A stretch of 64,000 bases of DNA from Tubulanus polymorphus (Eukaryota > Nemertea > Palaeonemertea > Tubulaniformes > Tubulanidae): assembly GCF_964204645.1 (NCBI RefSeq), contig NC_134032.1, positions 2,134,916 through 2,198,915 on the forward strand, written 5' to 3'. Position 1 is the stretch's first letter. Every line of letters begins with the position of its first letter. The notes under the pieces were generated by a model that saw only the letters and a program-made list of their open reading frames with translations, did not search any database and had not been told where the DNA came from. This document shows positions 7,297-63,900 of this stretch, piece after piece. The translations under genes were made by a program, and so were the position numbers.

Positions 7297-7537
7297 CAAT
7301 CTGCTGCCTGGACGACCTTCACCCCTTTAAACATTCGTCACCATTGTGTGTTAATGTCTTGACGATCAGTTGTTGAAAGTGTGCTGATAAAATGTCTAAT
7401 GTCTGGTGTTTGTAGTTCATTTTCAATTAAAAACGTCTCAGGTGAAGTTCTGAACACGTGTGAAGTGTGGACGATCAGTTTTTGAATATTTTAGATTGAG
7501 CTTGCCTAAGGGGTGGTCTCGTCCAGGCAGCAGATTG
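7297..7537. mobile_element. MITE with about 30-bp terminal inverted repeats, in the Ig gene 3' flank
   Basis: CAATCTGCTGCCTGGACGAC at 7297 is mirrored by GTCCAGGCAGCAGATTG ending at 7537; the subterminal CACCCCTT and AAGGGGTG also pair. Its interior (7370-7490) is the same sequence as the tandem units at 63541-63900. A rearranged relic with AAGGGGT and CCAGGCAACAGATTG sits near 56646-56710. Confidence 0.75.
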
Positions 7538-8440
7538 CTAACTAACTAGGCACTTGCGTATTATCTTAAACGCCTTTTCAACGCTATCCCAGACAAACTA
7601 ACGTAACAAAAATCTAAAATGTTTTGATATCGCGCATTTCTGTTAACGACATTATTGAGAGTATTTGTTTTTCTGTGAATGTTTTTTTTTTAAACAAGAT
7701 TACGTATTAATACTATAAAAAACCATTTTCGAGACGCTTTTTTGTTTTATCGTCGGAGGTAAGCGGTCTCTCCAGGTACGTTATAGAAAAGTGATATATT
7801 TCTATTTCATGAAAGGAAGCTTTTATCGAATCGATATTAACGATATTCTTCAAGACCTTTGAGTAATAAGGTTTCAGTGTATTTATACCGATTCGAGTCG
7901 AACCCTATTGGACTGTTCACGACGGAACCGCGGCATTTCAAGCGTTGTCCGCACACTGTAAGCAGCCAGCAGGACTCGAACCCACTTGTAAATCAGAACT
8001 GAAGGTCGATGCAACACCATCACGCCTTATCTCATTGGGAGCTACTGAGGTCGCACTTGGTATAATGGGCGTCGCGTTTGAAAATATTCTAACGGTTGAG
8101 TTGCATTTTACAGCATATCTAAGAAGGAAACTACCAATAAACTCAATAAGGACGTTGATCTTTTTCTATATATCAAGAAGGCTGAAAGGTAACTTAAACA
8201 ATTAGGGGTGTACAACGCCCTAATGACCTATGGATTGCTTAAATATTTGAGTTATCAATTCGGACAAATTTGAATTTTCCACACTTTTCTAGTGGCGCCA
8301 CTGTCGCGGGTTTAATCATAGTATTCAGGGCAGAAATCGGAAAATTAAAATGGCGTCGTCGAGGTTGATTTAAAGCGTATCTCTCCGTAAAATGTATCTG
8401 TCACATTCAATCTATATACAATTAAGTGGTTATTGATTCC
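7538..8440. other. Non-coding intergenic stretch
   Basis: Downstream flank of the Ig gene. No splice-consistent reading frame, inverted repeat or array was recognised. The frame at 7945-8205 lacks family resemblance and is not called. Confidence 0.5.
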
Positions 8441-9232
8441 AGATTGAGAGTATATAGAACTATCGGTTATAACGAGCAGATTTTCTGTTCCCGTGAAGTT
8501 CGTTGTAACTAGGTTCCGCTGTATATAGGACTATCGGTTATAAGGAACTGATTTTCTGGTCCCGTGAAGTTCGTTGTAACGAGGTTCCGCTGTATATAGA
8601 ACTATCGGTTATAACGAACAGATTTTCTGGTCCCCTGAAATTCGTTGTAACGCGGTTCCGCTGTTTATAGAACTATCGGTTATAACGAACTGATTTTCTG
8701 GTCCCCTGAAGTTCGTTGTATCGAGGTTCCGCTGTATATAGAACTATCGGTTATAACGAACAGATTTTTCTGGTCCCCTGAAGTTCGTTGTAACGCGGTT
8801 CCGCTGTATTTAGAACTATCGGTTATAACGAACTTATTTTCTGGTCCCCTGAAATTCGTTGTAACGCGGTTCCGCTGTATATAGAACTATCGGTTATAAC
8901 GAACAGATTTTCTGTTCCAGTGAAGTTCGTTGTAACGAGGTTCCGCTGTATATAGAACTATCGGTTATAACGAACTGATTTTCTGGTCCCCTGAAGTTCG
9001 TTGTAACGCGGTTCCGCTGTATATAGAACTATCGGTTATAACTAACTGATTTTCTGGTCCCCTGAAGTTCGTTGTAACGCGGTTCCGCTGTATATAGAAA
9101 TATCGGTTATAACGAACTGATTTTCTGGTCCCCTGAAGTTCCTTGTAACGCGGTTCCGCTGTATATAGAACTATCGGTGATAGCGAACAGATTTTCTGGT
9201 CCCGTGAAGTTCGTTGTAACGAGGTTCCACTT
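8440..9232 (+). repeat. 71-bp minisatellite, about 11 units
   Basis: The unit contains GGTTCCGCTGTATATAGAAC, then TATCGGTTATAACGAACTGA, TTTTCTGGTCCC and TGAAGTTCGTTGTAACG. The same sequence, reverse-complemented, forms one end of the MITE at 56710-56895. Confidence 0.95.
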
Positions 9233-9619
9233 TGTTGTGACGAAAATCGAGTATTGGGCGCCTGATATCGTTTTCGTCGCTTAATGGACGCGCAAAAAAC
9301 GAATATGGGCGTGTTTGCTAAACAGAGATCAAATTAAACACAAGCGCGTGTAAACAACGTTCGTTTTTGTCCTCATTAACTTTTTTTCCAATTTTCCGAT
9401 TCGTTCGTCGAGCGCGATAGCGCAATTAAACTTCAACGAGCCCGCGCGCGTGGTTATACGATAATTGCGCATTGATCATGTTGAGTTTACTCGCGTGGAG
9501 CGCGCGTTCTGAGTCGGTAGTCGCTGAATTAACGTTGAAGAGCTTTTTGCACCCGCTTTCAGAAGATGTGGTCTGATTTCCAGACACCGACACATAACTT
9601 GTGTGAACTTATTGACTCG

Positions 9620-10148
9620 TCTAAGATGATATAAAATCCCAGCACACTAAGAATAAAAAGAGTCTGAAATATTTCCTTGAGCTAGTGTAGTTTATTCAAC
9701 GTTTCGACTATATCCTAATAGTCATCTTCAGAAATACTGATGTTGTCCTCATTATAACCATTGATGAAACACTCTGAGTCCGTGTTGTAAAGATAATATA
9801 AAATCCCTGCACACTAAGAATAAAAAGAGTCTGAAATGTTTCCTTGAGCTAGTGTAGTTTATTCAACGTTTCGAATATATCCTAATAGTCATCTTCAGGA
9901 ATGCTGTATTCCTTGAGCTAGTGTAGTTTATTCAACGTTTGCACTATATCCTAATAGTCATCTTCAGGAATACTGATGTTGTCCTCATTATAACCATTGA
10001 TGAAACACTCTGAGTCCGTGTTGTAAAGATAATATAAAATCCCTGCTATATATAAAACATAAAAAGAGTTTGAAACGATTCCTTGAGCTAGTGACAAATA
10101 TGTAGTTATTTCAACGTTACGACTATATCCTAATAGTCATCTTCAGGA
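9620..10148 (+). repeat. 167-bp satellite, block 1 (about 3 units, one truncated)
   Basis: Units carry TAAAATCCCTGCACACTAAG, TTCCTTGAGCTAGTGTAGTT and TATTCAACGTTTCGACTATATCC split across adjacent phrases, then AATAGTCATCTTCAGGAA. The unit starting near 9906 is shortened. Block 2 lies at 11382-12405. Confidence 0.9.
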
Positions 10149-10199
10149 ATCCTCGGTTGTTAGTTGGATGATGTAAACACGTGTTGATTCGTAATGACG

Positions 10200-11381: not shown

Positions 11382-12405
11382 GTTGTAAAGATCCCAGCAC
11401 ACTAAGAATAAATAGAGTCTGAAATGTTTCCTTGAGCTAGTGTAGTTTATTTAATGTTTCGACTATATCCTAATAGTCATCTTTAGGAATACTGATGTTG
11501 TCCTCATTATAACCATTGATGAAACACTCTGAGTCCGTGTTGTGAAGATAATATAAAATCCCTGCACACTAAGAATAACAAGAGTCTGAAATGTTTCCTT
11601 GAGCTAGTGCAGTTTATTCAACGTTTCGACTATATCCTGATAGTCATCTTCAGGAATACTGATGTTATCCTCATTACAACCATTGATGAAACACTCTGAG
11701 TCCGTGTTGTAAAGATAATATAAAATCCCTGCGCACTAAGAATAAAAAGAGTCTGAAATGTTTCCTTGAGCTAGTGCAGTTTATTCAACGTTTCGAATAT
11801 ATCCTAATAGTCATCTTCAGGAATACTGATGTTGTCCTCGATATAATCATTGATGAAACACTCTGAGTCCGTGTTGTGAAGATAATATAAAATCCCTGCA
11901 CACTAAGAATAAAAAGAGTCTGAAATGTTACCTTGAGCTAGTGCAGTTTATTCAACGTTTCGACTATATCCTAATAGTCATCTTCAGGAATACTGATGTT
12001 GTCCTCATTATAACCATTGATGAAACACTCTGAGTCCGTGTTGTAAAGATAATATAAAATCCCTGCACACTAAGAATAAAAAGAGTCTGAAATGTTTCCT
12101 TGAGCTAGTGTAGTTTATTCAACGTTTCGAATATATCCTAATAGTCATCTTCAGGAATACTGATGTTATCCTCATTACAACCATTGATGAAACACTCTGA
12201 GTCCGTGTTGTGAAGATAATATAAAATCCCTGCACACTAAGAATAAAAAGAGTCTGAAATGTTTCCTTGAGCTAGTGCAGTTTATTCAACGTTTCGACTA
12301 TATCCTGATAGTCATCTTCAGGAATACTGATGATGTCATCATTATAACCATTGATGAAACACTCTGAGTCCGTGTTGTACAGATATTATAAAGTCCCTGT
12401 TCACC
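11382..12405 (+). repeat. 167-bp satellite, block 2 (about 6 units)
   Basis: The phrase GAAACACTCTGAGTCCGTGT recurs at 11521 and 11688, giving a period of 167 bp. Each unit holds GACTAT-TAGGAT-ATAGTC (reverse strand), a perfect six-pair hairpin flanked by CTGAAGAT and GAAACGTT. Confidence 0.95.
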
Positions 12406-12894
12406 AAGAATAAAGAATAAAACGTATTTCTGTATTAGGATTACGCATAATTTACACACAATATCGCCTATAATGTACTTGTACCCTGGCACTGGAATTT
12501 ATATCATAACGTATATTAATATTCGGAATAAACATCTTCATAACTTAAAAAAACAAATGTACATTCAAATAACGAGTGATGACCAGAAAAGTGTTTAAAT
12601 AAACTACGCACAAGGAAATATTTCACACACTATTTTAGATTTTTTTTTGTCATCGTTACATTGTGAGATTTAAAACTCTATAGATCTATATTCAGGCATC
12701 ACTAACGATTAATGTCGTTAACGGATAAAGTGTGTGTTGCTGGTATTTGTCTAATTGACCGCGCGTTGAGTAATGACGAACTGTCGACTCGATTGATGAG
12801 AAAAATGTTGCGGCATCGAAAAAAAAATCGTTAACTTCGTTATGAAGTTTTGTCGATCACCGGTAAATTGCTCGGTGACTCAAATCTGATTATA
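12406..12894. other. Non-coding stretch
   Basis: AT-rich flank between the 167-bp satellite and the 40-bp array. Nothing further was recognised. Confidence 0.5.
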
Positions 12895-13360
12895 GAACTC
12901 TGGATCCAGTTCCACAGTTGTGTGGGTTTTATTTGACTCTGGATCCAGTTCCACAGTTGTGTGGGTTTAATTTGATTCTGCATCTAAATTCAACGGTTGT
13001 GTAGATTTGATTTGACTTTGAATCCAGTTCCACAATTTTATGGGTTTTATTTGACTTTTGAATCCAGTTCCACAATTTTATGGGTTTAATTTGACTTTTG
13101 AATCCAGTTCCACAGTTTTATGGGTTTAATTTGACTATTGAATCTAGTTCCACAATTTTATGGGTTTAATTTGACTTTTGAATCCAGTTCCACAATTTTG
13201 TGGGTTTAATTTGACTTTTGAATCCAGTTCCACAATTTTATGGGTTTAATTTGACTTTTGAATCCAGTTCCAGAGTTTTATGGGTTCAATTTGACTTTTG
13301 AATCCAGTTCCACAGTTTTATGGGTTTAATTTGACTTTTTAATCCAGTTCCATTTCCATT
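12895..13360 (+). repeat. 39/40-bp minisatellite, block 1 (about 11 units)
   Basis: A variant of the GTTCCACAGTTGTGTGGG family: the unit is GTTCCACAATTTTATGGG, TTTAATTTGACT and TTTGAATCCA, 40 bp here rather than 39. Further blocks lie at 20236, 22947, 30165 and 46035. Confidence 0.95.
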
Positions 13361-14039: not shown

Positions 14040-15056
14040 ATGATGACGAACGCGAGCGTCGGTGGGTTCAGCGCAGAATTTTGCGAAATGACCAAGACGA
14101 ATTTACTGTGCGACCCGTTCTACGTGAACATGTTTTACATCCTCGGTCGTTACGCTATTTACGTCGTTGCGGCAATCGGCATCGTCGGGAACGTCCTGAC
14201 CCTGTTGGCGGCCGGTGGTCAGGCCTTGCGTAGCTCTGCCTCGTGGTACATGTGCTCTATAGCGGCCGTCGACACGGTTTACCTGTTCATGCGACCCGTT
14301 TTGGCGTACGGCCACGAGAACGAGTACGTTTGCAAACTGATGCAAGCCTGGCTGTTCACGGCGAATACGGCGGGCACCTGGACGGTCATAGCGATGACCG
14401 CCGAGAGGGCGTTCGTCGTGCTCTTCCCGTTCAAAGCTACCGAATTCTGTACGGTGAAAAAAGCCATCGCAATCACGGGGGCTATATTCGTTCTGGCATG
14501 TCTAGGGGGAGGGCCGGCTTACGCGTTTTACGATACCATCAAAATCTGCGACCTGTTCGCCTGTTTGTCGAGCAATCACATAGGCGAGCCTCTGTACGAC
14601 TTCTGGTCGCACGTCATCAACAGTTTACTATTCTATCTGCCGATACCGAGCCTGTTTCTGTTCAACACGGCGATCGTGATGACGTTGCTGCGAGCGGCGG
14701 CGTCCACCTCGGAGATGACCGCCGCCACGAAGACGACCAAAGCGTCGAAAGAGAAAGAACTGACGGTGACGCTGATGTCCGTGTCGGTATCGTTTCTGGT
14801 TTTGAACGTGCCGTTTTGCGTGAATTTCTTCGTCCAGGATCTCTACAATTACATCAAGTTAGCCTGCACGAGCCTCCTGCACTCCCTGATCATGTTCGAC
14901 TCGTCGGCGCAACTTCTGCACGTGATCGGACACGCGATCAACGGTTACATCTACTGCATTCGCAGCCCGAATTTCAGAAACCAGTTGTCCTACATGTTTA
15001 AGTGTCAAACTCCCCCGACCAATAAGTCGTCGGCTAGCTCGGCCGCCAAGGCTTGA
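14040..15056 (+). CDS. Class A (rhodopsin-like) G-protein-coupled receptor 1, intronless coding region
   Basis: A plasma-membrane receptor of 338 residues with seven hydrophobic segments near residues 31-58, 66-88, 100-126, 140-163, 187-217, 241-266 and 284-309. Class A landmarks: GN at 50-51 in TM1, Asp78 in TM2, ERA at 122-124 in place of DRY, NVPF at 256-259 in TM6 where CWxP normally sits, and NGYIY at 301-305 in place of NPxxY. Cys98 before TM3, with Cys170 or Cys175 in loop 2, can form the usual disulfide. Asn4 is a glycosylation site. The layout resembles lineage-expanded invertebrate peptide-receptor-like orphans; the ligand cannot be read from sequence. The start ATG follows an in-frame acceptor region; a second ATG follows at codon 2. 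It converges with GPCR 2. Confidence 0.9.
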   Translation: MMTNASVGGFSAEFCEMTKTNLLCDPFYVNMFYILGRYAIYVVAAIGIVGNVLTLLAAGGQALRSSASWYMCSIAAVDTVYLFMRPVLAYGHENEYVCKLMQAWLFTANTAGTWTVIAMTAERAFVVLFPFKATEFCTVKKAIAITGAIFVLACLGGGPAYAFYDTIKICDLFACLSSNHIGEPLYDFWSHVINSLLFYLPIPSLFLFNTAIVMTLLRAAASTSEMTAATKTTKASKEKELTVTLMSVSVSFLVLNVPFCVNFFVQDLYNYIKLACTSLLHSLIMFDSSAQLLHVIGHAINGYIYCIRSPNFRNQLSYMFKCQTPPTNKSSASSAAKA

Positions 15057-15195: not shown

Positions 15196-15455
15196 GTCAT
15201 AGACTGGTCTTGAGTTGTTAGATTATAGAAATAGATTGAGCTTAGACCGGTCTTAAGTTGTTAGATTGGCTATAGAACTAAAATCAGCTTAGACTGGTCT
15301 TAAGTTGTTAGATTGGCTATAGAACTAAAATCAGCTTAGACTGGTCTTAAGTTGTTAGATTGGCTAAAGACCTAAACAACAATAAACTTAAATTGGTCTT
15401 AATAAGGTTGTTGGATTGGTTAGGGAGACGAAAAAGGTGTAAGACTGGTCTCAAA
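15196..15455 (+). repeat. 47-bp minisatellite, block 2 (about 5 units)
   Basis: Copies of AGACTGGTCTTAAGTTGTTA and GATTGGCTATAGAACTAAAA directly downstream of GPCR 1, becoming degenerate towards 15450. Confidence 0.9.
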
Positions 15456-15960: not shown

Positions 15961-16288
15961 GAATCGGCGAAAATCGTTGTCACTTTATGGACATTCAAAA
16001 AAATCCACGATACAAACAGGTACACACCGGCTTTTACTTAATTCCTCTTTCTTAAATGTTTAATAAATTCTACATCAGTTGTGGTCACGTTGCTTGTTGT
16101 TTTTAGTTGTCGTTCGGAGACATGAAGACGACGCCTTTTCTTTTTCTATTCGGATAAACGGATTCTGTTTTTGTGTGAAATGCCTGCAGTTTGGTGATCT
16201 CCACCAATGTAGAGATGAACAAATTTGCCGATAGATTTCAATTTGATCTTCGTCAAAAACATCCGCTATTTTATCTTTTATTGCTACT

Positions 16289-16575
16289 TAATGACACAGT
16301 CTTATAGCATTTTTCTGGGGCATATATCTTACTGACACAGTCTTATAGCAGCTTTCTGGGGCATATATCTTACTGACACAGTCTTATAACAGCTTTCTGG
16401 GGTATATATCTTACTGATACAGTCTTATAGCAGCTTTCTGGGGCATATATCTTACTGACACAGTCTTATAGCAGCTTTCTGGGGTATATATCTTACTGAC
16501 ACAGTCTTATAGCAGCTTTCTGGGGCATATATCTTACTGATACAGTCTTATAGCAGCTTTCTATATCTTACTGAC
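16289..16575 (+). repeat. 41-bp minisatellite, about 7 units
   Basis: The unit is TGACACAGTCTTATAGCAGC then TTTCTGGGGCATATATCTTAC, in the region between the two convergent GPCR genes. Confidence 0.95.
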
Positions 16576-19208: not shown

Positions 19209-19725
19209 TAGGCATATTGTAATCCTTCTCAGGGATTCGAACCTGATGACATCGCGAGACTCTGCCACGTTCCTCCCTCGGCAGGGATTCGAACCTGATG
19301 ACATCGCGAGACTCTGCCGCGTTCCTCCCTCGGCAGGGATTCGAACCTGATGACATCGGACGACTCTGCCCCGTTCCTCCCTCGGTAGGGATTCGACCTG
19401 ATGGCATCGTGAGACTCTGCCACGTTCCTCCATCGGTAGGGATTCGAAGCTGATGGCATCGTGAGACTCGGCCACGTTCCTCCGTCGGTAGGGATTCGAA
19501 CCTGATGACATCGGACGACTCTGCCCCGTTCCTCCCTCGGTAGGGATTCGACCTGATGGCATCGTGAGACTCTGCCACGTTCCTCCATCGGTAGGGATTC
19601 GAAGCTGATGGCATCGTGAGACTCTGCCACGTTCCTCCATCGGTAGGGATTCGAACCTGATGGCATCGTGAGACTCGGCCACGTTCCTCCGTCGGTAGGG
19701 ATTCGACCTGATGGCATCGTGATTA
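19209..19725 (-). repeat. 52-bp minisatellite with tRNA-like boxes, about 10 units
   Basis: On the - strand each unit reads TGGCAGAGTCTCACGATGCC then ATCAGGTTCGAATCCCTACC and GAxGGAGGAACG. GGTTCGAATCC is a perfect pol III B-box and TGGCAGAGT is A-box-like, but the spacing is too short for a tRNA. The sequence matches the terminal repeats of the MITE at 21259-21597. The period is not a multiple of three, so all three - frames stay open by rotation. Confidence 0.9.
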
Positions 19726-20235: not shown

Positions 20236-20715
20236 GGGTTTGGCTCTGGATCCAATTCCACAATTGTCTGGGCATAATTGTTCCAATGCAGTTCCACCGT
20301 TGTGTGGGTTTAATTTGACTCTGGGTCCAGTTCCACAGTTATGTGGGTTTAATTTCACCGTGGGTCCAATTCCACGGTTCAGTTGTCTGGGCTTAATTTG
20401 ACTCTGGATCCAGTTCCACAGTTGTATAGGTTTAATTTGACTCTGGATCCAGTTCCACCGTTGTGTGTGTTTAATTTGACTCTGGGTCCAGTTCCACAGT
20501 TATGTGGGTTTAATTTCACCGTGGGTCCAATTCCACGGTTCAGTTGTCTGGGTTTAATTTGACTCTGGATCCAGTTCCACAGTTGTATAGGTTTAATTTG
20601 ACTCAGGATCCAGTTCCGCAGTTGTGTGGGTTTAATTTGACTGTGAACTCAGTTCCGCAGTTGTGTGGGTTTAATTTGACTCAGGATCCGATTCCACAGT
20701 TATGTGGGTTAAACG
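20236..20715 (+). repeat. 39-bp minisatellite, block 2 (about 12 units, irregular)
   Basis: GTTCCACAGTTGTGTGGGTT, TAATTTGACT and CTGGATCCA units with variants. It lies just downstream of the 3' end of EF-hand gene A. Confidence 0.9.
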
Positions 20716-20797: not shown

Positions 20798-20803
20798 TTT
20801 ATT
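20798..20803 (-). terminator. Polyadenylation signal of copy A, overlapping its stop codon
   Basis: AATAAA on the - strand; its TAA is the in-frame stop. Copy B has the same TTTGTCAATAAAA sequence about 45 bp beyond its own stop. Confidence 0.65.
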
Positions 20804-22544
20804 GACAAATATCTGCAACAGCTGATTCTGTTTTCTGACGATTTGAATTATTCTTTTTTTTATGATCTTCGACGACCACCTGGAGAAGACGTTTCATTAT
20901 CGGTTGAAGATTCTCTTCAATCTCGGATCTAAGAAATATCGCGAGTTCCGCAAACGATATTCCCTCCTTTCCGTCGGTGTCGCATTCTTCGAGTTTTTTC
21001 CTTATTTCTTCGTCGCGCTCGCCGTGCTGACCGAGAATTGCCAGGAAACTTTCCAATTCCCCCTTCTCCAACGATCCGCTTTTGTCTTTGTCGTATGCGA
21101 CAAAAATACGTTTCCATTTGTGATTGACTATTTGGCTGAAATCGTAAAATCGACCTCATGAAGTAAAGGTGAATTTCGAGACCGCAGTGTTAGATTTCAG
21201 TTTGTTTTTTTTATCCATTTGAGACTTTACTGCAAAATATACCGAGTAACAACCGAGACATCCTCCCTCTGCAGTGACTCGAACCTGATGGCATCGCTAC
21301 ACTCAGCCACGGCACGAACCCCTGCCACAGTAGACCGGGTGCGCAGGTACATGCGCAGCTTTCCGAACGAAAACTGGCGGCACCAATCAGATTGCTCGTT
21401 GTATAATCGTTGAGGCAAATTTCAAGGAAGAACTATAAATGGGAAAACCCGGGCTAAAATAAAACGGGATTTCTGATTGGCTAAAAATCACATCATCTGA
21501 ACTGTGCATGTATCTGCGCACACGGTCGATTATGGCAGGGTTTCGTGCCGTGGCAATCTTGATGCCATCAGGTTCGAATCCCTGCCGGGGGAGGATGCAA
21601 CCGAGACAGTAATTATAAATATTGACAAAATGATGTTCAACCTTTTTGGTGGTGAAGTTATTTTCAAGATCTCAATAGAGGTAACGATACCGAAATTGGG
21701 GGACACACGGGGCGATTTCGCCGGTAAAATCGCCCGGGCCAAATTCGGTTTTCGTATCTAGTCGACTAGTGGTCGGAACTAATGACCGAATGCGCTTGAT
21801 TTTCGAACTATTTCCGGAATATAGTTACGACTATCGGACATTCGGTTTCGTTTAGTTCGACTATAGTCGACTAACTCAGATAACCGAAGGTGGCCCAGTG
21901 TGTTAGGCTTTACGGAGATCCTTTAGCATCGAGCGCCGTATTCAACCGACCAATTATTCACGTGATTTATGAAAGGTGGCGCCACCGGCTGGTCGTTCGA
22001 TTAATGAAAGGTGGCGCCACCGGCTGGTCGTTTAATCAACTCGGCGCTGTTATATCAAATGGAATGTTTACGATTTAAGTGAAGGGGCACTTCATTTGAA
22101 AAATACCAAAACATTTCTTACCATTGTACAGTTCGATAAACACGTTATTAACTATTATTGACATACCTTAGCCATACCAGTGTGAACTCATAAAACCCTA
22201 TTTTATCAGACCGGGATTCAGAGGGATACTGTCGTTCCAATTCCTGTAGAATATATAAAATTTGTCAAATTAGCTTCTGCATTTCCAGTAGATATCGTCT
22301 GCGAGATATCGATTTTTATTCAATACACAGAATAGAATTTTATCATCGCGAAAAGTCCTAATACCTCGCTGAGCTGACGATCGGAGAGCACATCTGATAC
22401 CGTTTCACGCGAAACCTGCAGCGTTTCTCCATCGAACTGTTCGATACAAACCCGTAGCACTGGTTTGAAAGACCTGGTGAGGTTGCCGGCTCCGATCTGG
22501 TATTGCCGGAAAATCCCATCGCATATATCTAAGTAGGAGTCCAT
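20799..22544 (-). CDS. EF-hand calcium-binding protein, copy A (197 aa)
   Basis: Three exons on the - strand: 22544-22365, 22243-22167 and 21135-20799, with introns in phase 0 and phase 2, all GT-AG. The start is the ATG of MDSYLDICDG, aligned with the other copies. Residues 1-60 form a helical region with FDGETLQVS, perhaps a vestigial first EF-hand. The third exon holds loop DKDKSGSLEKGE, a canonical EF-hand, and loop DTDGKEGISFAE, which has Lys at position 5 and Glu at position 6. Length and layout recall soluble invertebrate sarcoplasmic calcium-binding proteins or calexcitin; that assignment is inference. The C-terminus is about 20 residues longer than in B-D. Its TAA stop (20801-20799) lies inside the AATAAA of 20803-20798, in sequence that is 3' UTR in copy B. 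Confidence 0.85.
21259..21597. mobile_element. 339-bp MITE with 9-bp target duplication, Mutator-like
   Basis: It is flanked by CAACCGAGA at 21250-21258 and again at 21598-21606. The ends are CATCCTCC and GGAGGATG, and the inverted repeats run for about 100 bp and include GATTCGAACCTGATGGCATC-like sequence. A 9-bp duplication with long terminal repeats is typical of Mutator-like elements; the family call is inference. It sits in intron 2 of EF-hand copy A. Copy B has the uninterrupted site at about 24395-24410. Confidence 0.8.
21738..21895 (-). mobile_element. TAGTCGACTA-type MITE, copy 2 (inverted)
   Basis: Reverse-orientation counterpart of 18922-19085, with CGTATCTAGTCGACTAGTGG, TTCCGGAATATAGT and CGACTATAGTCGACTAA. 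It lies in intron 2 of copy A. Confidence 0.7.
21965..22040 (+). repeat. Two-unit tandem repeat with GGTGGCGCCACC palindrome
   Basis: ATGAAAGGTGGCGCCACCGG and CTGGTCGTTxxATxA occur twice in a row in intron 2 of copy A. Confidence 0.85.
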
Positions 22545-22585
22545 CGCAATTTGTGACCGCATTGCTTCGCGTGTGTGCGTTAACT

Positions 22586-22635
22586 GTCGAATATGCCTGG
22601 TTTCCAAGGTCCGTTACGCCCACCGACTATAAAGG
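22586..22635 (-). promoter_or_regulatory. Conserved proximal promoter block of copy A
   Basis: The - strand reads CCTTTATAGTCGG, then ACCTTGGAAACCAGGCATAT and TCGAC, 42-90 bp upstream of the ATG. Equivalent blocks precede copies B (25684-25733), C (29493-29545) and D (33043-33093). The TATA-like element is clearest in B (TTATAAAG) and C (CTATATAG). Confidence 0.55.
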
Positions 22636-22818: not shown

Positions 22819-22946
22819 TTGGATTGTGACAAGCCACATTTTATTTTTGCGAAGATCAAGCTCTTTTTATTGAGTTAGAATAGTGTATTTTGAGTTTGTG
22901 TGTTTATTCGGCCACAATTAGAAATACCCTAGCCCTTTTTGGTTCA

Positions 22947-23692
22947 ATTGACTCTGGATCCAGTTCCACAGTTGTGTGGGTTTAATTTGACTGTGAATCC
23001 AGTTCCACAGTTGCGTGGGATTAATTTGACTCAGGATCCAGTTCCACAGTTGTGTGGGTTTAATTTGACTCTGAATCCAGTTCCGCAGTTGTGTGGGTTT
23101 AATTTGACTGTGAATCCAGTTCCACAGTTGTGTGGGATTAATTTGACCCTGGATCCAGTTCCACAGTTGTGTGGGTTTAATTTGACTCTGGATCCAGTTC
23201 CACAGTTGTGTGGGTTTAATTTGACTCTGGATCCAGTTCCACAGTTGTGTGGGTTTAATTTGACTCTGAATCCAGTTCCGCAGTTGTGTGGTTTTAATTT
23301 GACTGTGAACTCAGTTCCACAGTTGTGTGGGTTTAATTTGACTCTGGATCCCACAGTTGTGTGGGTTTAATTTGACTGTGAATCCAGTTCCACAGTTGTG
23401 TGGGTTTAATTTGACTCTGGATCCAGTTCCACAGTTGTGTGGGTTTAATTTGACTCTGGATCCAGTTCCGCAGTTGTGTGGGTTTAATTTGACTGTGAAT
23501 CCAGTTCCGCAGTTGTGTGGGATTAATTTGACCCTGAATCCAGTTCCACAGTTGTGTGGGTTTAATTTGACTCTGAATCCAGTTCCACAGTTGTGTAGGT
23601 TTAATTTGACTCTGAATCCAGTTCCGCAGTTGTGTGGGTTTAATTTGACCCTGGATCCAGTTCTACAGTTGTGTGGGTTTAATTTAACCTGA
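22947..23692 (+). repeat. 39-bp minisatellite, block 3 (about 19 units)
   Basis: Very regular units: GTTCCACAGTTGTGTGGGTT, TAATTTGACT and CTGGATCCA (or GTGAATCCA). The 39-bp period keeps PVPQLCGFNLTLD open in frame. It lies between EF-hand copies A and B. Confidence 0.97.
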
Positions 23693-24066
23693 CTCTCATG
23701 ATTGCAGAAAAAGTCGCCTTTAATTTTTTTTCTATACCTCCCATCATAATAAACTGCAATTTTCGCTCAATTTGAATTTTTTTCTGCGATCAAAGTTTTC
23801 CGTGGATAATAATCAAATAATAAAAAAAAGTTATCATTATTTTCGCCGTTCCCATCCATTTAGAACGCCTTTTTCATTTTTTATCTCGACAAACTTGCAT
23901 TATTTGCCTACGGGCTATCTGATTTCCCGCCTCTCCTTTCGACGACTAGACGAAAGTCGAATAGTTCGGCTGCGAAACAGAAAGCGTAGCTAAAAAAATG
24001 TATAATTCATCTCAACTTTTATTGACAAATATCTACATCAGCTGATTGTTTTCATGACGATTGAAA

Positions 24067-30104: not shown

Positions 30105-30164
30105 TTACTCTTTTAACTCTATTCTTGTTGTGAGCGAGTGATATTGTTTTGATAAAAAAGTTCG

Positions 30165-30880
30165 AACCCGGTTCCACTGTTTTATCGGTTTAATTTGACT
30201 CTGAACCCAGTTCCACAGTTGTGTGGGTTTAATTTAACTCAGGATCCAGTTCCACAGTTGTGTGGGTTTGATTTGACTTTGAACCCAGTTCCACAGTTAA
30301 ATGTGTGGGTTTAATTTGTTTCTTGATCCAGTTCCACTTGTGCGTAGTTTAAATATGTCTCTAAGTCCCGTTTAACAGTTGTGTGGGATATATTCGTCTA
30401 TTAGCCCAGTTCCACAGTTGTATGGTTTTAATTTGTCTCTGGGTCCACTTTAACATTTGTGTGGGTTTAATTTCACTCTGAACCCAGTTCCACAGTTGTG
30501 TTGATTTAATTTCACTCTGAACCCAGTTCCACAGTTGTGTGGGTTTATTTTGTCTCTGGGTCCACTTTTACAGTTGTGTGGGTTTAATTTCACTCTGAAC
30601 CCAGTTCCACAGTTGTGTGGATTTAATTTAACTCAGGATCCAGTTCACAGTAGTGTGGGTTTAATTCGCTTCTTGATTCAGTTCCACAGTTGTGTGGGTT
30701 TGATTTGACTCTGAACCCAGTTCCACAGTTGTGTGGGTTTAATTTGTCTCTGGGTCCACTTTAACAGTTGTGTGGGTTTAACTTGGCTCTGAACCCAGTT
30801 CCACAGTTGTGTGGGTTTAATTTGTCTCTGTCTCCAGTTCGAGAATTATGCGGCGGTTTAATTGATTCCAAACCCAATTC
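30165..30880 (+). repeat. 39-bp minisatellite, block 4 (about 18 divergent units)
   Basis: GTTCCACAGTTGTGTGGGTT units alternating CTGAACCCA and CTGGGTCCA. It lies between EF-hand copies C and D. Confidence 0.92.
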
Positions 30881-33245: not shown

Positions 33246-33400
33246 GACAAGTCTAAGCTCATTTTAGTTCTATAGCCAATCTAACAGAGCTTAAGACCAG
33301 ACAAAGCTCATTTTAGTTCTATAGCCAATCTAACAGCTTAGGACCAGTCTAAGCTCATTTTAGTTCTATTGCCAATCTTACAACTTAAGACCAGTCCAAG
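33246..33400 (-). repeat. 47-bp minisatellite, block 3 (about 3 units, inverted)
   Basis: AAGCTCATTTTAGTTCTATA, GCCAATCTAACA and CTTAxGACCAGTCT, opposite to the blocks in the Ig gene. Confidence 0.9.
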
Positions 33401-33464
33401 CAGAGGGTAAGGGTTAGGATTAGGCTAAAAGGCTATAGCTAGTTAAAAATTTAGGGTCATCAGT

Positions 33465-45951: not shown

Positions 45952-46034
45952 CTCGGGGCTTATTGAATTAATTATCAATTAACCCCCGGGTTTAAGTTAA
46001 TACTAGTCTATAAAACCGGGCTTAGGTCTATAAC

Positions 46035-46280
46035 AGCTGGGTGGGTTTAATTTGACTCTGGATCCAGTTCCACAGTTGTGTGGGTTTAATTTGACTACGG
46101 ACCCAGTTCCACAGTAGTGTGTGGGTTTAATTTGACTGTGGATCCAGTTCCACAGTTGTTTGGGTTTAATTTGACTACGGACCCAGTTCCACAGTAGTGT
46201 GTGGGTTTAATTTGACTGTGGATCCAGTTCCACAGTTGTCTGGGTTTTATTTGACTCTGGATCTAGTTGCACAGTTGTGT
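46035..46280 (+). repeat. 39-bp minisatellite, block 5 (about 6 units)
   Basis: GTGGGTTTAATTTGACTCTG and GATCCAGTTCCACAGTTG units. It lies just outside the right end of the 10.4-kb element, next to a fragment of the about 60-bp repeat of the Ig gene intron. Confidence 0.92.
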
Positions 46281-46814
46281 GAGAATAATTGGATTTTGTA
46301 TTCAGGATTTTAAGATGTGTAGGCATGAAAACACGATATACACAATTTTGGCGGCTAGCCCTACCAATATGTCGCCTATGTCACTATAACGTAATGATAT
46401 CACAATAGGAAATTCATATAGTTGCTATAAATTGATTTAGAAAGTTTAAAGAATGTTTGAAAAATAAGAACTTGGCCATTAGTACCCTGGCACTCAGTTT
46501 TGGTATTACAAACATTTTTTCTAGAGAAAATTCAGTGTTTGAATTTCAATTTCAGTATGTGTGTGTTCGCACTCAAAAAGGCCTTCGTTTACAAATTATG
46601 AATTTTGCCTTTATGAGAAATCCTCTTATTCATATGGATTGGTATTATACTATAAATGATCGTTAAGCTGTATTCAGTGTTTCACGCCAGGTGACTGTAA
46701 TTATTTAAATATTCCTAGCGTTCTATTTTATTCTATCATTGCGACGTACATTACCACTACGCTACTATGCTGAAATTCGAATTCGACTTTTAGGTAGGCT
46801 AATATAATACCGGT
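46281..46814. other. Non-coding stretch
   Basis: A 69-codon frame at 46457-46666 has no family resemblance or splice context and is not called. Nothing else was recognised. Confidence 0.45.
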
Positions 46815-48265
46815 CTAAGTTCGCGTTTGTTCTATATACGATCTAACAATTTCAGACCAGTCTCAGCTCATTTTGGTACTATAACCGATCCAACATTTTA
46901 AGACCAGTCTAAGCTCATTTTGGTTCTATAGCCAATCTAACAACTTAAGACCAGTCTAAGCTCATTTTAGTTCTATAACCGATCCAACATTTTAAGACCA
47001 GTCTAAGCTCATTTTGGTTCTATAACCAATCTATAACGACTTAAGACCAGTCTAAGCTCATTTTAGTTCTATAACCAATCTAACAATCTTAGACCAGTCT
47101 AAGCTCATTTTGGTTCTATAACCAATCTAACAACTTAAGACCAGTCTAAGCTCATTTTAGTTCTATAGACAATCTAACAATCTAAGACTAGTCTAAGCTC
47201 ATTTTGGTTCTATAGCCAATCTAACAACTTAAGACTAGTCTAAGCTCATTTTGGTTCTATAGCCAATCTAACAACTTAAGACCAGTCTAAGCTCATTTTA
47301 GTTCTATAGACAATCTAACAATCTAAGACTAGTCTAAGCTCATTTTGGTTCTATAGCCAATCTAACAACTTAAGACCAGTCTAAGCTCATTTTAGTTCTA
47401 TAGCCAATCTAACAATCTAAGACTAGTCTAAGCTCATTTTGGTTCTATAGCCAATCTAACAACTTAAGACCAGTCTAAGCTCATTTTAGTTCTATAGACA
47501 ATCTAACAATCTAAGACTAGTCTAAGCTCATTTTGGTTCTATAGCCAATCTAACAACTTAAGACCAGTCTAAGCTCATTTTAGTTCTATAACCAATCTAA
47601 CAACGTAAGACCGGTCTAAGCTCATTTTAGTTCTATAACCAATCTAACAACTTAAGACCAGTCTAAGCTTATTTTAGTTCTATAACCAATCTAACAACTT
47701 AAGACTAGTCTAAGCTCATTTTGGTTCTATAGCCAATCTAACAACTTAAGACCAGTCTAAGCTCATTTTAGTTCTATAACCAATCTAACAACTTAAGACC
47801 GGTCTAAGCTCATTTTAGGTCTATAACCAATCTAACAACTTAAGACCAGTCTAAGCTTATTTTAGTTCTATAACCAATCTAACTACTTAAGACAAGTCTA
47901 AGCTCATTTTAGTTCTATAACCAATCTAACAACTTAAGACTAGTCTAAGCTCATTTTGGTTCTGTAGCCAATCTAACTACTTACGACCAGTCTAAGCTCA
48001 TTTTGGTTCTATAACCAATCTAACAACTTAAGACCAGTCTAAGCTCATTTTAGTTCTATAGCCAATCTAGCAACTAAAGACCCGTCTAAGCTCATTTTGG
48101 TTCTGTAACCAATCTAACAACTTAAGACCAGTCTAAGCTCATTTTAGTTCTATAGCCAATCTAGCAACTTAAGACCAGTCTAAGCTAATTTTGGTTCTAT
48201 AGAAAATCTAACAACTTAAGACCAGTCTAAGCTCATTTTGGTTCTGTAACACCACGATCTAACGA
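46815..48265 (-). repeat. 47-bp minisatellite, block 4 (about 31 units, inverted)
   Basis: AAGCTCATTTTGGTTCTATA, GCCAATCTAACAACTTAAGA and CCAGTCT. This is the longest block of the family. TTTTAG and TTTTGG variants alternate in runs, suggesting two- to three-unit higher-order duplication. Confidence 0.96.
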
Positions 48266-49172: not shown

Positions 49173-49308
49173 GGATTCAGTTCCACAGTGTTGCGAGTTC
49201 CACAATTGCGAGTTGAGATTTAGTAACTCGGAGTAAACTCATTTCGAAAATGAATTAACTTTAACTCGCAATTAACTCTAACTCACACAACACCGTGGAA
49301 CTGGGTCC
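49173..49308. mobile_element. GGACCCAGTTCCACAG-type MITE, copy 1
   Basis: AGGATTCAGTTCCACAGT at the left pairs with CCGTGGAACTGGGTCCT at the right; the interior is GAGTTA/TAACTC-rich with TTTCGAAAATGAATTAAC. Confidence 0.75.
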
Positions 49309-50181: not shown

Positions 50182-50280
50182 GGACCCAGTTCCACAGTCG
50201 TGAGTTAGAGTTAACTCTCAGTTAAAATCAATTCATTTTCAACGAGTCAAATCATAACTCACAACTGTCGAACTGGGTCC
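50182..50280. mobile_element. GGACCCAGTTCCACAG-type MITE, copy 2 (99 bp)
   Basis: GGACCCAGTTCCACAG at the left, and CAACTGTCGAACTGGGTCC at the right as its inverse. The interior is GAGTTAGAGTTAACTCTCAG then AACGAGTCAAATCATAACTC. A partial second copy follows at 50281-50345. Confidence 0.85.
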
Positions 50281-56375: not shown

Positions 56376-56486
56376 GGACCCAGTTCCACAGTCGTGAGTT
56401 AGAGTTAAATCTGGGTTAAAATTAGTTCATTTCCAATGATTTAACTCTCGAGTCAAATCTTAACTCAGAACTGTGGAACTGAGTCC
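56376..56486. mobile_element. GGACCCAGTTCCACAG-type MITE, copy 3 (111 bp)
   Basis: GGACCCAGTTCCACAG at the left and CTGTGGAACTGAGTCC at the right; the interior is GAGTTAGAGTTAAAT and TAACTCTCGAGTCAAATC. Confidence 0.85.
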
Positions 56487-56709
56487 TGTATGATAAAAAG
56501 AAAGTGTTTCTATTTTACAGTTGCTGGGATACTGCTACCCCGATCATTGGTCTCATAGATAATCAAGTCCCTGTGGTTCCCTTGCCATGAATAATGACAA
56601 ATCAGATCGTACAGACTTCAGGTCCAGTCATATGATGGTTGTCCGAAGGGGTACACGGTCCAGGCAACAGATTGCCCGAAGGGGTGAAGGTTACAGGCAG
56701 CAAATTGAT

Positions 56710-56895
56710 ACAGTGGAACCTCGTTACAACGAACTTCACAGGACCAGAAAATCTGTTCGTTATAACCGATAGTTCACTGTTATATCTAGTATGAAATTAA
56801 TCAAATGTTCCTACTTGGGACGAAATTCTATATTTGTTGTTGGTTGGTCTGATGAATCGTTGTATCCGAGTTCGTTGTAACGAGGTTCCACTGCG
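56710..56895. mobile_element. MITE with CAGTGGAACCTCGTTACAAC termini
   Basis: CAGTGGAACCTCGTTACAAC at the left is mirrored by GTTGTAACGAGGTTCCACTG at the right. The left arm continues GAACTTCACAGGACCAGAAA and CGTTATAACCGATAG, which is the 71-bp unit of 8440-9232 in reverse. Termini starting CAGTGGAACC are common in Tc1/mariner-pogo-type elements; that family call is inference. Confidence 0.82.
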
Positions 56896-57235: not shown

Positions 57236-57720
57236 AGGCTGGTCTCAGGTTGTTTGATTGGTTATAGAAAATGAGCTGAGACTGGTCTTAACTTGTTAGA
57301 TTCGATATAGAACCAAAATGAACAGAGTTTGTTAAGTTTTTTTGTCGGTTATGAGTTTTAGACTAGTCGTAAGTTGTTAAATTGGTTATGGAACCAGAAT
57401 AAGCTTAGACTGGTCTTAAGTTGTTAGATTGGATATAGAACCGAAATGAGCTTAGACTGGTCTTAAGTTGTTAGATTGGTAATAAAACCAAATTGAGCAT
57501 AGTTTGGTAGGTTTTTTAAGTTGGTTACGAGTTTAGACTGGTCTTACGTTGTTAAATTGGTTATTGGACAAAAATAAGCATAAATTGGTCTTAAGCTGTT
57601 AGATAGGGTTTATACCTGAAATGAGCTTAGACTGGTCTTAAGTTGTAAGATTAGTAATAGAACCATAATAAGTCAAAATAGGCTGGTCTTAAGTTGTTAG
57701 ATTGTAGCCTAGAACCGAGA
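57236..57720 (+). repeat. 47-bp minisatellite, block 5 (about 10 divergent units)
   Basis: GACTGGTCTTAAGTTGTTAG and ATTGGTTATAGAACCAAAAT variants, more diverged than the other blocks. Confidence 0.88.
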
Positions 57721-59094: not shown

Positions 59095-59360
59095 CGCGAT
59101 CTGGTAACTGAATATTACAATGTAAATTTACAGCGTGTTCGATTCAAGTGATCGATAGAAATTTGAAACCATTTTAGTCGAGTTGAACATTTCAGCAAAT
59201 TCAGCTGCGCTTTATCCTGGTTTACAGTCAGTAAATATCGTCCGTATGTTCTAACTAATAATGTCGCTACTGTGTTTTAACAAATTAATCTCGACTGAGC
59301 TAGAAACAGACCACGTTATGTGTTTTATAGTTAAACCTTTTATTTTGTGTGGTGTTAAAA
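59095..59360. other. Flank before the large array
   Basis: Non-repetitive, AT-rich. Would contain the promoter of the possible small - strand gene. No motif is convincing. Confidence 0.4.
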
Positions 59361-62300
59361 TGACCAGTTCTCGGTTGGTTCACTGGGGCTCGAGTAATGA
59401 GCAGTTCTCGGTTGGTTCACTGGGACTCGAGTAATGATCAGTTCTCGGTTGGTTCACTGGGACTCGAGTAATGATCAGTTCTCGGTTGGTTCACTGGGAC
59501 TCGAGTAATGATCAGTTCTCGGTTGGTTCACTGGGACTCGAGTAATGATCAGTTCTCGGTTGGTTCACTGGGACTCGAGTAATGATCAGTTCTCGGTTGG
59601 TTCACTGGGAATCGAGTAATGATCAGTTCTCGGTTGGTTCACTGGGACTCGATTAATGATCAGTTCTCGGTTGGTTCACTGGGACTCGAGTAATGATCAG
59701 TTCTCGGTTGGTTCACTGGGACTCGAGTTATGATCAGTTCTCGGTTGGTTCACCGGGACTCGAGTAATGATCAGTTCTCGGTTGGTTCACTAGGACTCGG
59801 GTAATGATCAGTTCTCGGTTGGTTCACCGGGACTCGAGTAATGATCAGTTCTCGGTTGGTTCACCGGGACTCAAGTTATGATCAGTTCTCGGTTGGTTCA
59901 CCGGGACTCGAGTAATGATCAGTTCTCGGTTGGTTCACTAGGACTCGAGTAATGATCAGTTCTCGGTTGGTTCACTGAGACTCGATTAATGACCAGTTCT
60001 CGGTTGGTTCACTGGGACTCGAGTAATGATCAGTTCTCGGTTGGTTCACTGGGACTCGAGTAATGATCAGTTCTCGGTTGGTTCACTGGGACTCGAGTAA
60101 TGACCAGTTCTCGGTTGGTTCACTGGGACTTGAGTAATGATCAGTTCTCGGTTGGTTCACTAGGACTCGAGTAATACCAGTTCTCGGTTGGTTCACTGAA
60201 ACTCGAGTAATGATCAGTTCTCGGTTGGTTCACTGGGACTCGAGTAATGATCAGTTCTCGGTTGGTTCACTGGGACTCGAGTAATGATCAGTTCTCGGTT
60301 GGTTCACTGGGACTCGATTAATGACCAGTTCTCGGTTGGTTCACTGGGACTCGAGTAATGATCAGTTCTCGGTTGGTTCACTGAGACTCGAGTAATGATC
60401 AGTTCTCGGTTGGTTCACTGGGACTCGATTAATGACCAGTTCTCGGTTGGTTCACTGGGGCTCGAGTAATGACCAGTTCTCGGTTGGTTCACTGGGACTC
60501 GAGTAATGATCAGTTCTCGGTTGGTTCACTAGGACTCGATTAATGATCAGTTCTCCGTTGGTTCACTGAGGCTCGAGTAATGATCAGTTCTCGGTTGGTT
60601 CACTGGGACTCGAGTAATGATCAGTTCTCGGTTGGTTCACTGGTGCTCGAGTAATGACCAGTTCTCGGTTGGTTCACTGAGACTCGATTAATGACCAGTT
60701 CTCGGTTGGTTCACTGGGACTCGAGTAATGATCAGTTCTCGGTTGGTTCACTGAGACTCGATTAATGATCAGTTCTCGGTTGGTTCACTGGGACTCGAGT
60801 AATGACCAGTTCTCGGTTGGTTCACTAGGACTCGAGTAATGACCAGTTCTCGGTTGGTTCACTGAGACTCGATTAATGATCAGTTCTCGGTTGGTTCACT
60901 GGGACTCGAGTAATGATCAGTTCTCGGTTGGTTCACTGAGACTCGATTAATGATCAGTTCTCGGTTGGTTCACTGGGACTCGAGTAATGATCAGTTCTCG
61001 GTTGGTTCACTGGGACTCGATTAATGACCAGTTCTCGGTTGGTTCACTGGTGCTCGAGTAATGACCAGTTCTCGGTTGGTTCACTGAGACTCGATTAATG
61101 ACCAGTTCTCGGTTGGTTCACTGGGACTCGAGTAATGATCAGTTCTCGGTTGGTTCACTGGTGCTCGAGTAATGATCAGTTCTCGGTTGGTTCACTGAGA
61201 CTCGATTAATGATCAGTTCTCGGTTGGTTCACTGGGACTCGAGTAATGACCAGTTCTCGGTTGGTTCACTAGGACTCGAGTAATGACCAGTTCTCGGTTG
61301 GTTCACTGAGACTCGATTAATGATCAGTTCTCGGTTGGTTCACTGGGACTCGAGTAATGATCAGTTCTCGGTTGGTTCACTGAGACTCGATTAATGATCA
61401 GTTCTCGGTTGGTTCACTGGGACTCGAGTAATGATCAGTTCTCGGTTGGTTCACTGGGACTCGATTAATGACCAGTTCTCGGTTGGTTCACTGGTGCTCG
61501 AGTAATGACCAGTTCTCGGTTGGTTCATTGAGACTCGATTAATGACCAGTTCTCGGTTGGTTCACTGGGACTCGAGTAATGATCAGTTCTCGGTTGGTTC
61601 ACTGAGACTCGATTAATGATCAGTTCTCGGTTGGTTCACTAGGACTCGAGTAATGACCAGTTCTCGGTTGGTTCACTAGGACTCGAGTAATGACTTGTTC
61701 TCGGTTGGTTCACTGAGACTCGATTAATGATCAGTTCTCGGTTGGTTCACTGGGACTCGAGTAATGATCAGTTCTCGGTTGGTTCACTGAGACTCGATTA
61801 ATGATCAGTTCTCGGTTGGTTCACTGGGACTCGAGTAATGATCAGTTCTCGGTTGGTTCATTGGGACTCGAGTAATGATCAGTTCTCGGTTGATTCACTG
61901 GGACTCGAGTAATGATCAGTTCTCGGTTGGTTCATTGGGACTCGAGTAATGATCAGTTCTCGGTTGATTCACTGGGACTCGAGTAATGATCAGTTCTCGG
62001 TTGGTTCACTGGACTCGATTAATGATCAGTTCTCGGTTGGTTCACTGGGACTCGAGTAATGATCAGTTCTCGGTTGGTTCACTGGGACTCGATTAATGAT
62101 CAGTTCTCGGTTGGTTCACTGGGACTCGAGTAATGATCAGTTCTCGGTTGGTTCACTGGACTCGATTAATGATCAGTTCTCGGTTGGTTCACTGGGACTC
62201 GAGTAATGATCAGTTCTCGGTTGGTTCACTGGGACTCGAGTAATGATCAGTTCTCGGTTGGTTCACTGAGGCTCGAGTAATGACCAGTTCTCGGTTGGTT

Positions 62301-63457
62301 CACTGGGGCTCGAGTAATGACCAGTTCTCGGTTGGTTCACTGGGACTCGAGTAATGATCAGTTCTCGGTTGGTTCACTGGGGCTCGAGTAATGATCAGTT
62401 CTCGGTTGGTTCACTGGGACTCGAGTAATGACCAGTTCTCGGTTGGTTCACTGGGACTCGAGTAATGATCAGTTCTCGGTTGGTTCACTGGGACTCGAGT
62501 AATGATCAGTTCTCGGTTGGTTCACTGGGACTCGAGTAATGATCAGTTCTCGGTTGGTTCACTGGGACTCGAGTAATGATCAGTTCTCGGTTGGTTCACT
62601 GGGACTCGAGTAATGATCAGTTCTCGGTTGGTTCACTGGGACTCGAGGAATGATCAGTTCTCGGTTGGTTCACTGAGGCTCGAGTAATGACCAGTTCTCG
62701 GTTGGTTCACTGGGACTCGAGTAATGACCAGTTCTCGGTTGGTTCACTGGGACTCGAGTAATGATCAGTTCTCGGTTGGTTCACTGGGACTCGAGTAACG
62801 ATCAGTTCTCGGTTGGTTCACTGGGGCTCGAGTAATGATCAGTTCTCGGTTGGTTCACTGAGACTCGAGTAATGATCAGTTCTCGGTTGGTTCACTGGGA
62901 CTCGAGTAATGACCAGTTCCCGGTTGGTTCACTGAGACTCGAGTAATGATCAGTTCTCGGTTGGTTCACTGGGACTCGAGTAATGATCAGTTCTCGGTTG
63001 GTTCACTGAGACTCGAGTAATGATCAGTTCTCGGTTGGTTCACTGAGGCTCGAGTAATGATCAGTTCTCGGTTGGTTCACTGGGGCTCGAGTAATGATCA
63101 GTTCTCGGTTGGTTCACTGAGACTCGAGTAATGATCAGTTCTCGGTTGGTTCACTGGGGCTCGAGTAATGATCAGTTCTCGGTTGGTTCACTAGGACTCG
63201 AGTAATGATCAGTTCTCGGTTGGTTCACTGAGACTCGAGTAATGATCAGTTCTCGGTTGGTTCACTGAGACTCGAGTAATGATCAGTTCTCGGTTGGTTC
63301 ACTGGGACTCGATTAATGACCAGTTCTCGGTTGGTTCACTGGGGCTCGAGTAATGATCAGTTCTCGGTTGGTTCACTGGGACTCGAGTAATGACCAGTTC
63401 CCGGTTGGTTCACTGGGACTCGAGTAATGATCAGTTCTCGGTTGGTTCACTGGGACT
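59361..63457 (+). repeat. 37-bp minisatellite, main array (about 110 units)
   Basis: The unit is GATCAGTTCTCGGTTGGTTC, ACTGGGACTCGAGTAAT; nearly every unit carries the palindrome ACTCGAGT, with a GATTAAT variant in place of GAGTAAT. The variants ACC/ATC, GGG/GAG and TGGTGC recur in blocks of about 11-12 units between 60640 and 61830, which is higher-order structure. The period is not a multiple of three and each unit has TAATGA, so no protein is encoded. Confidence 0.98.
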
Positions 63458-63540
63458 TTCTTTAAGATTTTGTGGAATTGCTGGATGTTGTTTCATCCGG
63501 GTAATGTACATGTTAGTCTGATTCCGTCAGATATGTATTA

Positions 63541-63900
63541 CTGTAACGTGAAGTGTGGATGATCAGTTTTTGAAAGTGTGCTGATAAAATGTCTAATGTC
63601 TGGTGATTGTAGTTCATTTTCAATTAGAAATGTCTCAGGTGAAGCACTGAACACATGTGAAGTGTGGATGTTCAGTTTTTGAAAGTGCGCTGATAAAATG
63701 TCTAATTGATGTTTGTAGTTCATTTTCAATTAGAAATGTCTCAGGTGAAGCACTGAACACATGTGAAGTGTAGACGATCAGTCTTTGAAAGTGTGCTGAT
63801 AAAATGTCTAATATCCGGTGTTGGTAGTTCATTTTCAATTTGAAATGTCTCAGGTGAAGTTCTGAATGTGAAGTTCATGTGAAGTGTCGACGTTTTTGCA
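63541..63900 (+). repeat. About 110-bp tandem repeat, three and a half units
   Basis: TGTGAAGTGTGGATGATCAG, TTTTTGAAAGTGTGCTGATA, AAATGTCTAATGTCTGGTG and TTCATTTTCAATTAGAAATG recur at about 105-118-bp steps. It is the same sequence as the interior of the MITE at 7297-7537. Confidence 0.92.

Follow-up and report, generated by a model that had tools for sequence, protein, structure and literature searches.

Minisatellite families and small inverted-repeat transposons with shared units in a 64-kb stretch of the Tubulanus polymorphus genome

The origin of satellite arrays is an old question, and its early steps are usually erased. It is raised again by a stretch of 64,000 nucleotides of the palaeonemertean ribbon worm Tubulanus polymorphus (C8:2134916-2198915, in an assembly of 267.8 Mb and 77 contigs; the whole stretch is called the window below), where tandem arrays lie among short inverted-repeat transposons that contain the same units. 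The original prediction for this window was that four unrelated tandem families, of 39, 71, 52 and about 110 bp, each share their unit with a miniature inverted-repeat transposable element (MITE), and that arrays were born repeatedly from transposon ends through one general process of amplification. Did the arrays come from the elements, and if so by which steps? Our analysis indicates that the longer-unit minisatellite families of the window are for the most part, and very probably, tandemised pieces of small non-autonomous cut-and-paste transposons. This one genome keeps all stages for at least two unrelated elements, and a partial series for others.

Tandem units and the elements that match them

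We identified ten non-coding tandem families in the window, with units of 57, 49, 47, 71, 69/167, 39-40, 41, 52, 37 and 106 bp. The count includes arrays found by Tandem Repeats Finder with a unit of at least 30 bp in at least three copies, and excludes microsatellites, units below that length, repeats with two copies and the 33-bp repeat found within the open reading frame (ORF) at 6898. When similarity between unit and element was judged against 500 dinucleotide shuffles, none of the 500 reached the score of the 39-, 71-, 52-, 47-, 49- or 57-bp unit against its element, the elements for the 47-, 49- and 57-bp units being located outside the window. The 69/167-bp unit is tied to hairpin elements on another basis than the shuffle test, namely facing inverted pairs and the reading of two loci, L056 and L059. 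Seven of the ten families are linked to an element, and those of 37, 41 and 106 bp are not. The pairings foreseen for the 39-, 71- and 52-bp families are thus upheld, that for 110 bp is not, and the 47-bp (five arrays), 49-, 57- and 69/167-bp families are additional element-linked cases.

The elements themselves are dispersed. Each element query was scored at its best 40 places, its own included, so that the results are samples of the candidates seen at first look (1292 for the 71-type, 605 for the 39-type, 1983 for the 52-type, 251 for the 49-type and 536 for the 57-type). All five types have 40 scored places, some of those of the 49-type being partial, and a single-unit 47-type element was read in L074, L030 and L039 only.

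The 71-type element (56711..56893, plus strand) has the pogo/Tigger-like terminus CAGTGGAACCTCG. The terminus CAGTGGAACC, which we take to be a mark of pogo/Tigger (Tc1/mariner) and from which we presume the family name, is present, and TA stands on both sides in 4 of the 8 readable copies (of 10). The 71-bp unit matches the element over 64 bp without a gap, starting at the terminal CAGTGG and running inward; the window's own array of 11 units (8450..9231, minus strand) carries the element's left terminus, and the remainder of the element was not found alongside.

The 39-bp unit corresponds to the first 39 bp of one arm, from the terminal G of GGACCCAG. It aligns from the terminal base inward over 38 bp to the element at 50182..50280 and over 21 bp to that at 56376..56486, and over 27 bp, with gaps, to that at 49173..49308. 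Five arrays of this family lie in the window, all on the plus strand: 12904..13352 (39/40 bp), 20239..20710, 22941..23692 (19.5 units), 30164..30830 and 46033..46281.

The 52-bp array (9.5 units at 19231..19722, plus strand) matches a 339-bp element at 21259..21597 (plus strand) that is flanked by the 9-bp target duplication CAACCGAGA. The unit represents bp 1-52 of this element, with bp 3-52 aligning ungapped (50 bp, 7 mismatches). The other 39 scored copies of the 339-bp family are 98-99% identical, and 21 of 30 copies are flanked by 9-bp duplications with at most one mismatch (exact termini were lacking in two of the 30); a control of mismatched pairs gave 0 of 28.

The 57-bp array (about 3.4 units at 3499..3715, minus strand) is made of the terminal segment of an inverted-repeat element of about 160 bp, nowhere whole in the window, the unit running inward from the terminus GGGCCCGGTTTCATAGA; copies of the element were read in L072-L074. 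The 47-bp unit is an internal piece of an element of about 145 bp (L074), lying between two AAGACCAGTCTAAG-like motifs about 47 bp apart. In L074 (about 65-380) the 57-type element adjoins the 47-type at a common CAG, and different families may use the same target. For the 39-, 47- and 57-type elements we looked for a 3-bp CWG/TWA target duplication, a trait of PIF/Harbinger; in the 39-type a target duplication is clear in the nested copy L039 and weak over the copies taken together. The 49-bp array (25.6 units at 4019..5274, plus strand) consists of an arm segment of a dispersed hairpin element, read in L075-L080, L087 and L088; the unit lies between one copy of AAAAACTA in the arm and another in the loop, which in L075 are separated by 51 bp. 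The 69/167-bp family comprises copies at 9600..10160, related to the hairpin element of L056 and L059, and a 167-bp array of 6.2 units at 11386..12414.

Four of the seven linked units (39, 52, 57 and 71 bp) start at the element terminus, where about 0.4 would be expected from random starts, and the junctions of the 39-, 57- and 71-bp units carry the presumed target motif (CTG, CTG and TA, respectively). Of 400 non-tandem 47-bp segments drawn at random from the window, 7 had facing inverted pairs at another place in the sample, versus six of the ten unit families (all except 57, 41, 37 and 106 bp); the sample for this control was fetched around 39-, 52- and 71-type elements, so that the fair count is three of seven (47, 49 and 69 bp), with a chance of about 2e-4. 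In L030 and L039 the 47-bp pairs resemble two 47-type elements that adjoin each other in opposite orientations. Satellites borne by Helitrons or Helentrons are not known to come with terminal inverted repeats or a target duplication, and the inverted termini present in the 71-, 52-, 39-, 47- and 57-type elements do not fit this source.

Array-bearing elements

An origin from transposons predicts elements that carry two, three or more units, and such intermediates were found. Outside the window the 71-bp family has 39 scored array places; 20 of them were fetched, with about 2 to 9 units each. In 14 of these 20 loci (about 3-9 units) the interior or the right end of the element is kept beyond the array, with a score above 99% of shuffles, and in 11 of the 14 above every shuffle. 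The first unit starts TA|CAGTGG in several loci, for example L097, L104 and L105.

The array units differ consistently from the single-unit elements. The sequence TTCTATATA follows 60 of 79 array units and none of 11 single-unit elements, and CAGCGG stands in 46 of 61 inner units and in 0 of 11 single-unit elements, all 11 of which have the TGG form. Because the junction TTCTATATA|CAG is common to the 71-bp arrays read, these data suggest one founding duplication followed by dispersal; the query itself contained this junction, so that arrays with other junctions would rank lower and may have been missed. Forty of the 79 array units have their nearest relative within their own locus, versus a mean of 10 and a maximum of 20 with shuffled labels. 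Differences between array units come to 0.085 within loci and 0.110 between loci; array units and single-unit elements are 0.134 apart, and the divergence among the single-unit elements is 0.089.

In the 47-bp family, both element ends score above every shuffle around 4-9 units in 4 of 12 fetched loci (L124, L127, L130 and L132), most clearly in L124 and L132, and a weak right end alone was detected in L126 and L134. The five arrays of the window differ in what they keep: those at 5736..6530 (minus strand) and 33246..33401 (plus strand) are free-standing, with no element end above threshold; that at 15200..15376 (minus strand) lies in a degraded element whose right end scores above every shuffle and whose left end equals the best shuffle; that at 57239..57704 (minus strand) retains the right end, the left being at, not above, threshold; and the 30-unit array at 46829..48250 (plus strand) has traces of the interior at both edges, with termini not above threshold. 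Single-unit elements, multi-unit elements and free arrays, the three forms expected of a satellite-carrying MITE, are therefore all present for the 71- and 47-bp units. Multi-unit forms were also read in L071, where the terminal 57 bp of a 57-type element are present twice, and in L059, whose hairpin element bears units of 67-69 bp, about three in one arm and two in the second.

The direction from element to array is supported, because the 39-, 52-, 57- and 71-bp units contain element termini, single-unit elements are widespread and multi-unit elements of the 71- and 47-bp families keep their own ends. Repeated origin of arrays from transposons accordingly holds between families, seven of the ten being linked, and is not established array by array.

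Unlinked families and neighbouring genes

The prediction for the 110-bp family fared differently. An inverted repeat of about 28 bp at 7297..7537 surrounds 1.2 units of a 109-bp satellite, and the shared unit is confirmed by a 97-bp match reached by 0 of 500 shuffles. Its status as a MITE is not: a 67-bp query from the left end matched only itself genome-wide, although a missing match does not prove rarity, and instead of repeated copies the structure has as sole relative a diverged, doubled version of its end, two tandem 33-bp copies at 56639..56707 (33-bp unit versus the structure, also 0/500). Derivation of the 110-bp array from a MITE is thus unsupported; given the doubled relative of its end, the structure may be a low-copy or old element. 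The 109-bp satellite forms numerous arrays on C6, C8, C9, C10 and C12, the large ones chiefly at C6:20-22.7 Mb, with others at C8:0.7-0.95 Mb and C9:1.1-2.3 Mb, and L082 has units in both orientations. Its local members are the structure at 7297 and the 106-bp array (three units at 63548..63866, plus strand); for this array a link to an element is not established.

The largest array of the window is made of a 37-bp repeat (111 units at 59359-63457), with a second array of 16 units, in inverted orientation, at a distance of 5 kb (53847-54427). We could not find this unit anywhere in the genome outside these two arrays. An element origin was considered for them and rejected: they have no relatives elsewhere, and 144 of 500 shuffles reach their score against the 71-type element. 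The 41-bp unit (16287-16562) forms arrays mainly on C8 and C6, with a few shorter copies on C1, C2, C3 and C6. No inverted element was present at the three single places read, and the unit could be the end of a further, unrecognised element.

Four ORFs lie among the repeats (14040-15056, 16715-17677, 34046-35503 and 50781-52760); two match 7tm_1 receptors and two match MFS transporters, that at 50781-52760 being a monocarboxylate transporter with 100% identity to a T. polymorphus protein over 98% of the query. The stretches 20800-22620 and 24000-24780 are alike, in tandem and with long motifs in common, and are probably duplicated gene copies.

Origin of the arrays and comparison with known systems

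How might a first duplication arise? Copying of the terminal segment could restart at the element end, through a template switch during replication or during the repair of transposition gaps; alternatively, an element could insert at a target motif inside another of its kind. Both routes would put the junction at the terminus plus target motif. Insertion into the own kind does occur, since L039 is a nested self-insertion, a 108-bp 39-type element lying within another 39-type with CAG on both sides and about 95 bp of the outer part duplicated. Restarted copying is favoured because the 71-bp structures are one-sided, as is L071. The 47- and 49-bp seeds may instead come from slippage between short direct repeats that the element contains. 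Slippage is not supported as a general seed: it does not predict the unit length for 52, 57, 69 and 71 bp, is no more than suggestive in the 47- and 49-bp families, and in the 39-bp family the repeat taken as an example sits in another part of the element. Seeds thus differ between families, and the single general amplification process originally proposed is not borne out. An array-bearing element would then probably spread by transposition, and its unit number would shift through unequal exchange, chiefly in the distal parts of chromosomes, until the ends of the element are lost to decay.

Several observations weigh against an origin of the arrays in transposons. The chance of four terminal starts, about 2e-4 at 2-bp tolerance, comes from a post hoc rule and rough element lengths. 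The scored far end is absent in 6 of the 20 fetched 71-bp loci, and one or both ends are missing in 8 of the 12 fetched 47-bp loci. The remainder of the element was found beside none of the 19 arrays of the 39-bp unit (14 of them fetched and 5 from the window), two scoring at the threshold, so that the multi-unit stage was not seen for this unit and its path is drawn from sequence alone. The flanks of the 39-type are identical in 12 of 18 copies with CWG on both sides (25 readable of 30), which is weak in bulk, and the tandems of L016 (two units of 104 bp, in the 39-type sample) and L045 (20/40 bp) have no end at an exact CWG site. Direct-repeat spacings as good as that of the unit make up 15% (47 bp), 16% (39 bp) and 23% (49 bp) of the total, and 65% (57 and 71 bp), 74% (69 bp) and 88% (52 bp) in the other families. 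Finally, the 52-bp array unit differs from the present, near-uniform family at 7 of 50 aligned bases and at two terminal bases, and therefore derives from an older relative of the element; an age of the arrays greater than that of all MITE copies, which would argue against the transposon origin, is thus partly seen in this family, and the 71-bp distances favour neither order of age.

Other explanations were considered. Transposons may have picked up pre-existing satellites, with arrays as the source and elements as carriers. Such capture would suit the 109-bp satellite, with its many arrays and the lone inverted-repeat structure at 7297, and the position of the 47-bp unit in the middle of its element (L074) is compatible with it; a capture model is also given for the Xenopus element miDNA4 in a review (PMC12628747). 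However, the element's own termini are part of the 39-, 52-, 57- and 71-bp units, and we regard capture as improbable. A closer competitor, which we nevertheless doubt, is that all seeds come from nested or double insertion at target motifs in or beside the own kind, the direct repeats then expanding. It agrees with the nested insertion of L039 and its CAG on both sides, with L040, a 39-type dimer sharing CAG, and with the 57-type abutting the 47-type element at CAG in L074, but in the 71-bp array elements and in L071 the extra units are one-sided and the outer remainder of a host copy is not seen. It is also unlikely that every array was born independently from an element close by, over and over within each family. 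The 71-bp units do resemble those of their own locus more than expected, and the shared junction may be a selection effect, the queries being the window's own arrays; yet CAGCGG and the TTCTATATA junction prevail in the arrays, as counted above, and are absent from the single-unit elements, and the fetched 39-bp arrays have one unit variant in common.

The position of arrays along chromosomes, contig ends being taken as chromosome ends, bears on where seeds expand. Among the best-scored matches, 33 of 38 arrays of the 71-bp unit, 33 of 36 of the 47-bp unit and 28 of 39 of the 39-bp unit lie within 3 Mb of a contig end, a zone that makes up a share of 0.28 of the twelve large contigs. The corresponding best-scored figures for single-unit elements are 6 of 39 (71-type) and 11 of 38 (49-type). 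This clustering could conceivably reflect a bias of the search or of the assembly, a possibility to which we give the lesser weight. Scoring covered only the best 40 of the candidates (822 for 71 bp, 643 for 39 bp and 1191 for 47 bp), with the window's own arrays, from a distal locus, as queries, and some elements are distal-rich in any case (39-type 23/39, 57-type 28/39, 52-type 15/37), the contrast between 39-bp arrays and elements being weak (P 0.05). However, the 71- and 47-bp array matches are spread over 9 and 10 contigs, and the 71-type single elements, likewise the best 40 from a query at the window locus, are not distal. We would suggest, with considerable reserve, that cut-and-paste transposition is itself the main minisatellite source in this genome, that copying restarted at the transposon end during excision repair, or self-insertion, seeds terminus-anchored duplicates in one family after another, and that distal regions expand them. 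If true, minisatellites near chromosome ends mostly record transposon ends.

The conversion of MITEs into satellites is already known, and the present case is a real, well-supported example of it. Our literature search found no nemertean account of transposable elements together with satellite DNA; judged by titles and the beginnings of abstracts, repeats are not a topic of the papers found to name T. polymorphus, one of which concerns genome size. The closest parallels are in Xenopus and Drosophila. In Xenopus, Xstir arrays reside in a MITE (Hikosaka and Kawahara 2004, as described in PMC12628747 and PMC9659126), and there too element, element plus array and free array coexist, with a unit derived from the element. 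Here, by contrast, several unrelated element families lie in 64 kb and four units start from terminal bases; the Xstir repeats are possibly internal according to one of these reviews and belong to the terminal inverted repeat in the table of the other. The Tc1/mariner MITE miDNA4 of Xenopus, which bears a satellite (Scalvenzi and Pollet 2014, via the same two reviews), resembles our elements in that copy number varies inside the transposon and free arrays arise through loss of the ends, but its tandem repeat is said to have been captured, whereas four of our units include the terminus.

In the foldback element Tetris / TIR-220 of Drosophila virilis (PMC4079207), tandem repeats in the terminal inverted repeats seed longer arrays, and the chromosome environment is thought to favour amplification. 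That is a single family with a 220-bp unit in beta-heterochromatin, whereas we find seven families, with shorter units (the longest 69/167 bp) in a distal region. Double insertion of transposable elements (McGurk and Barbash 2018, as outlined in PMC12628747) has counterparts here: the dimer in L040 and the elements that adjoin each other in L074 fit repeated insertion at a target duplication, and L039 is a nested form, but the one-sided 71-bp arrays do not require it. Further satellite-bearing transposons are tabulated in a review (PMC12628747 / PMC9659126). In T. polymorphus the families can be set side by side in their copy-number series, junctions and chromosome position, and the distal bias makes the site of seed expansion testable. 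What is new relative to the known systems is the density of families in one stretch, the anchoring of units at the terminus and the contrast in position between single-unit and array-bearing 71-type elements.

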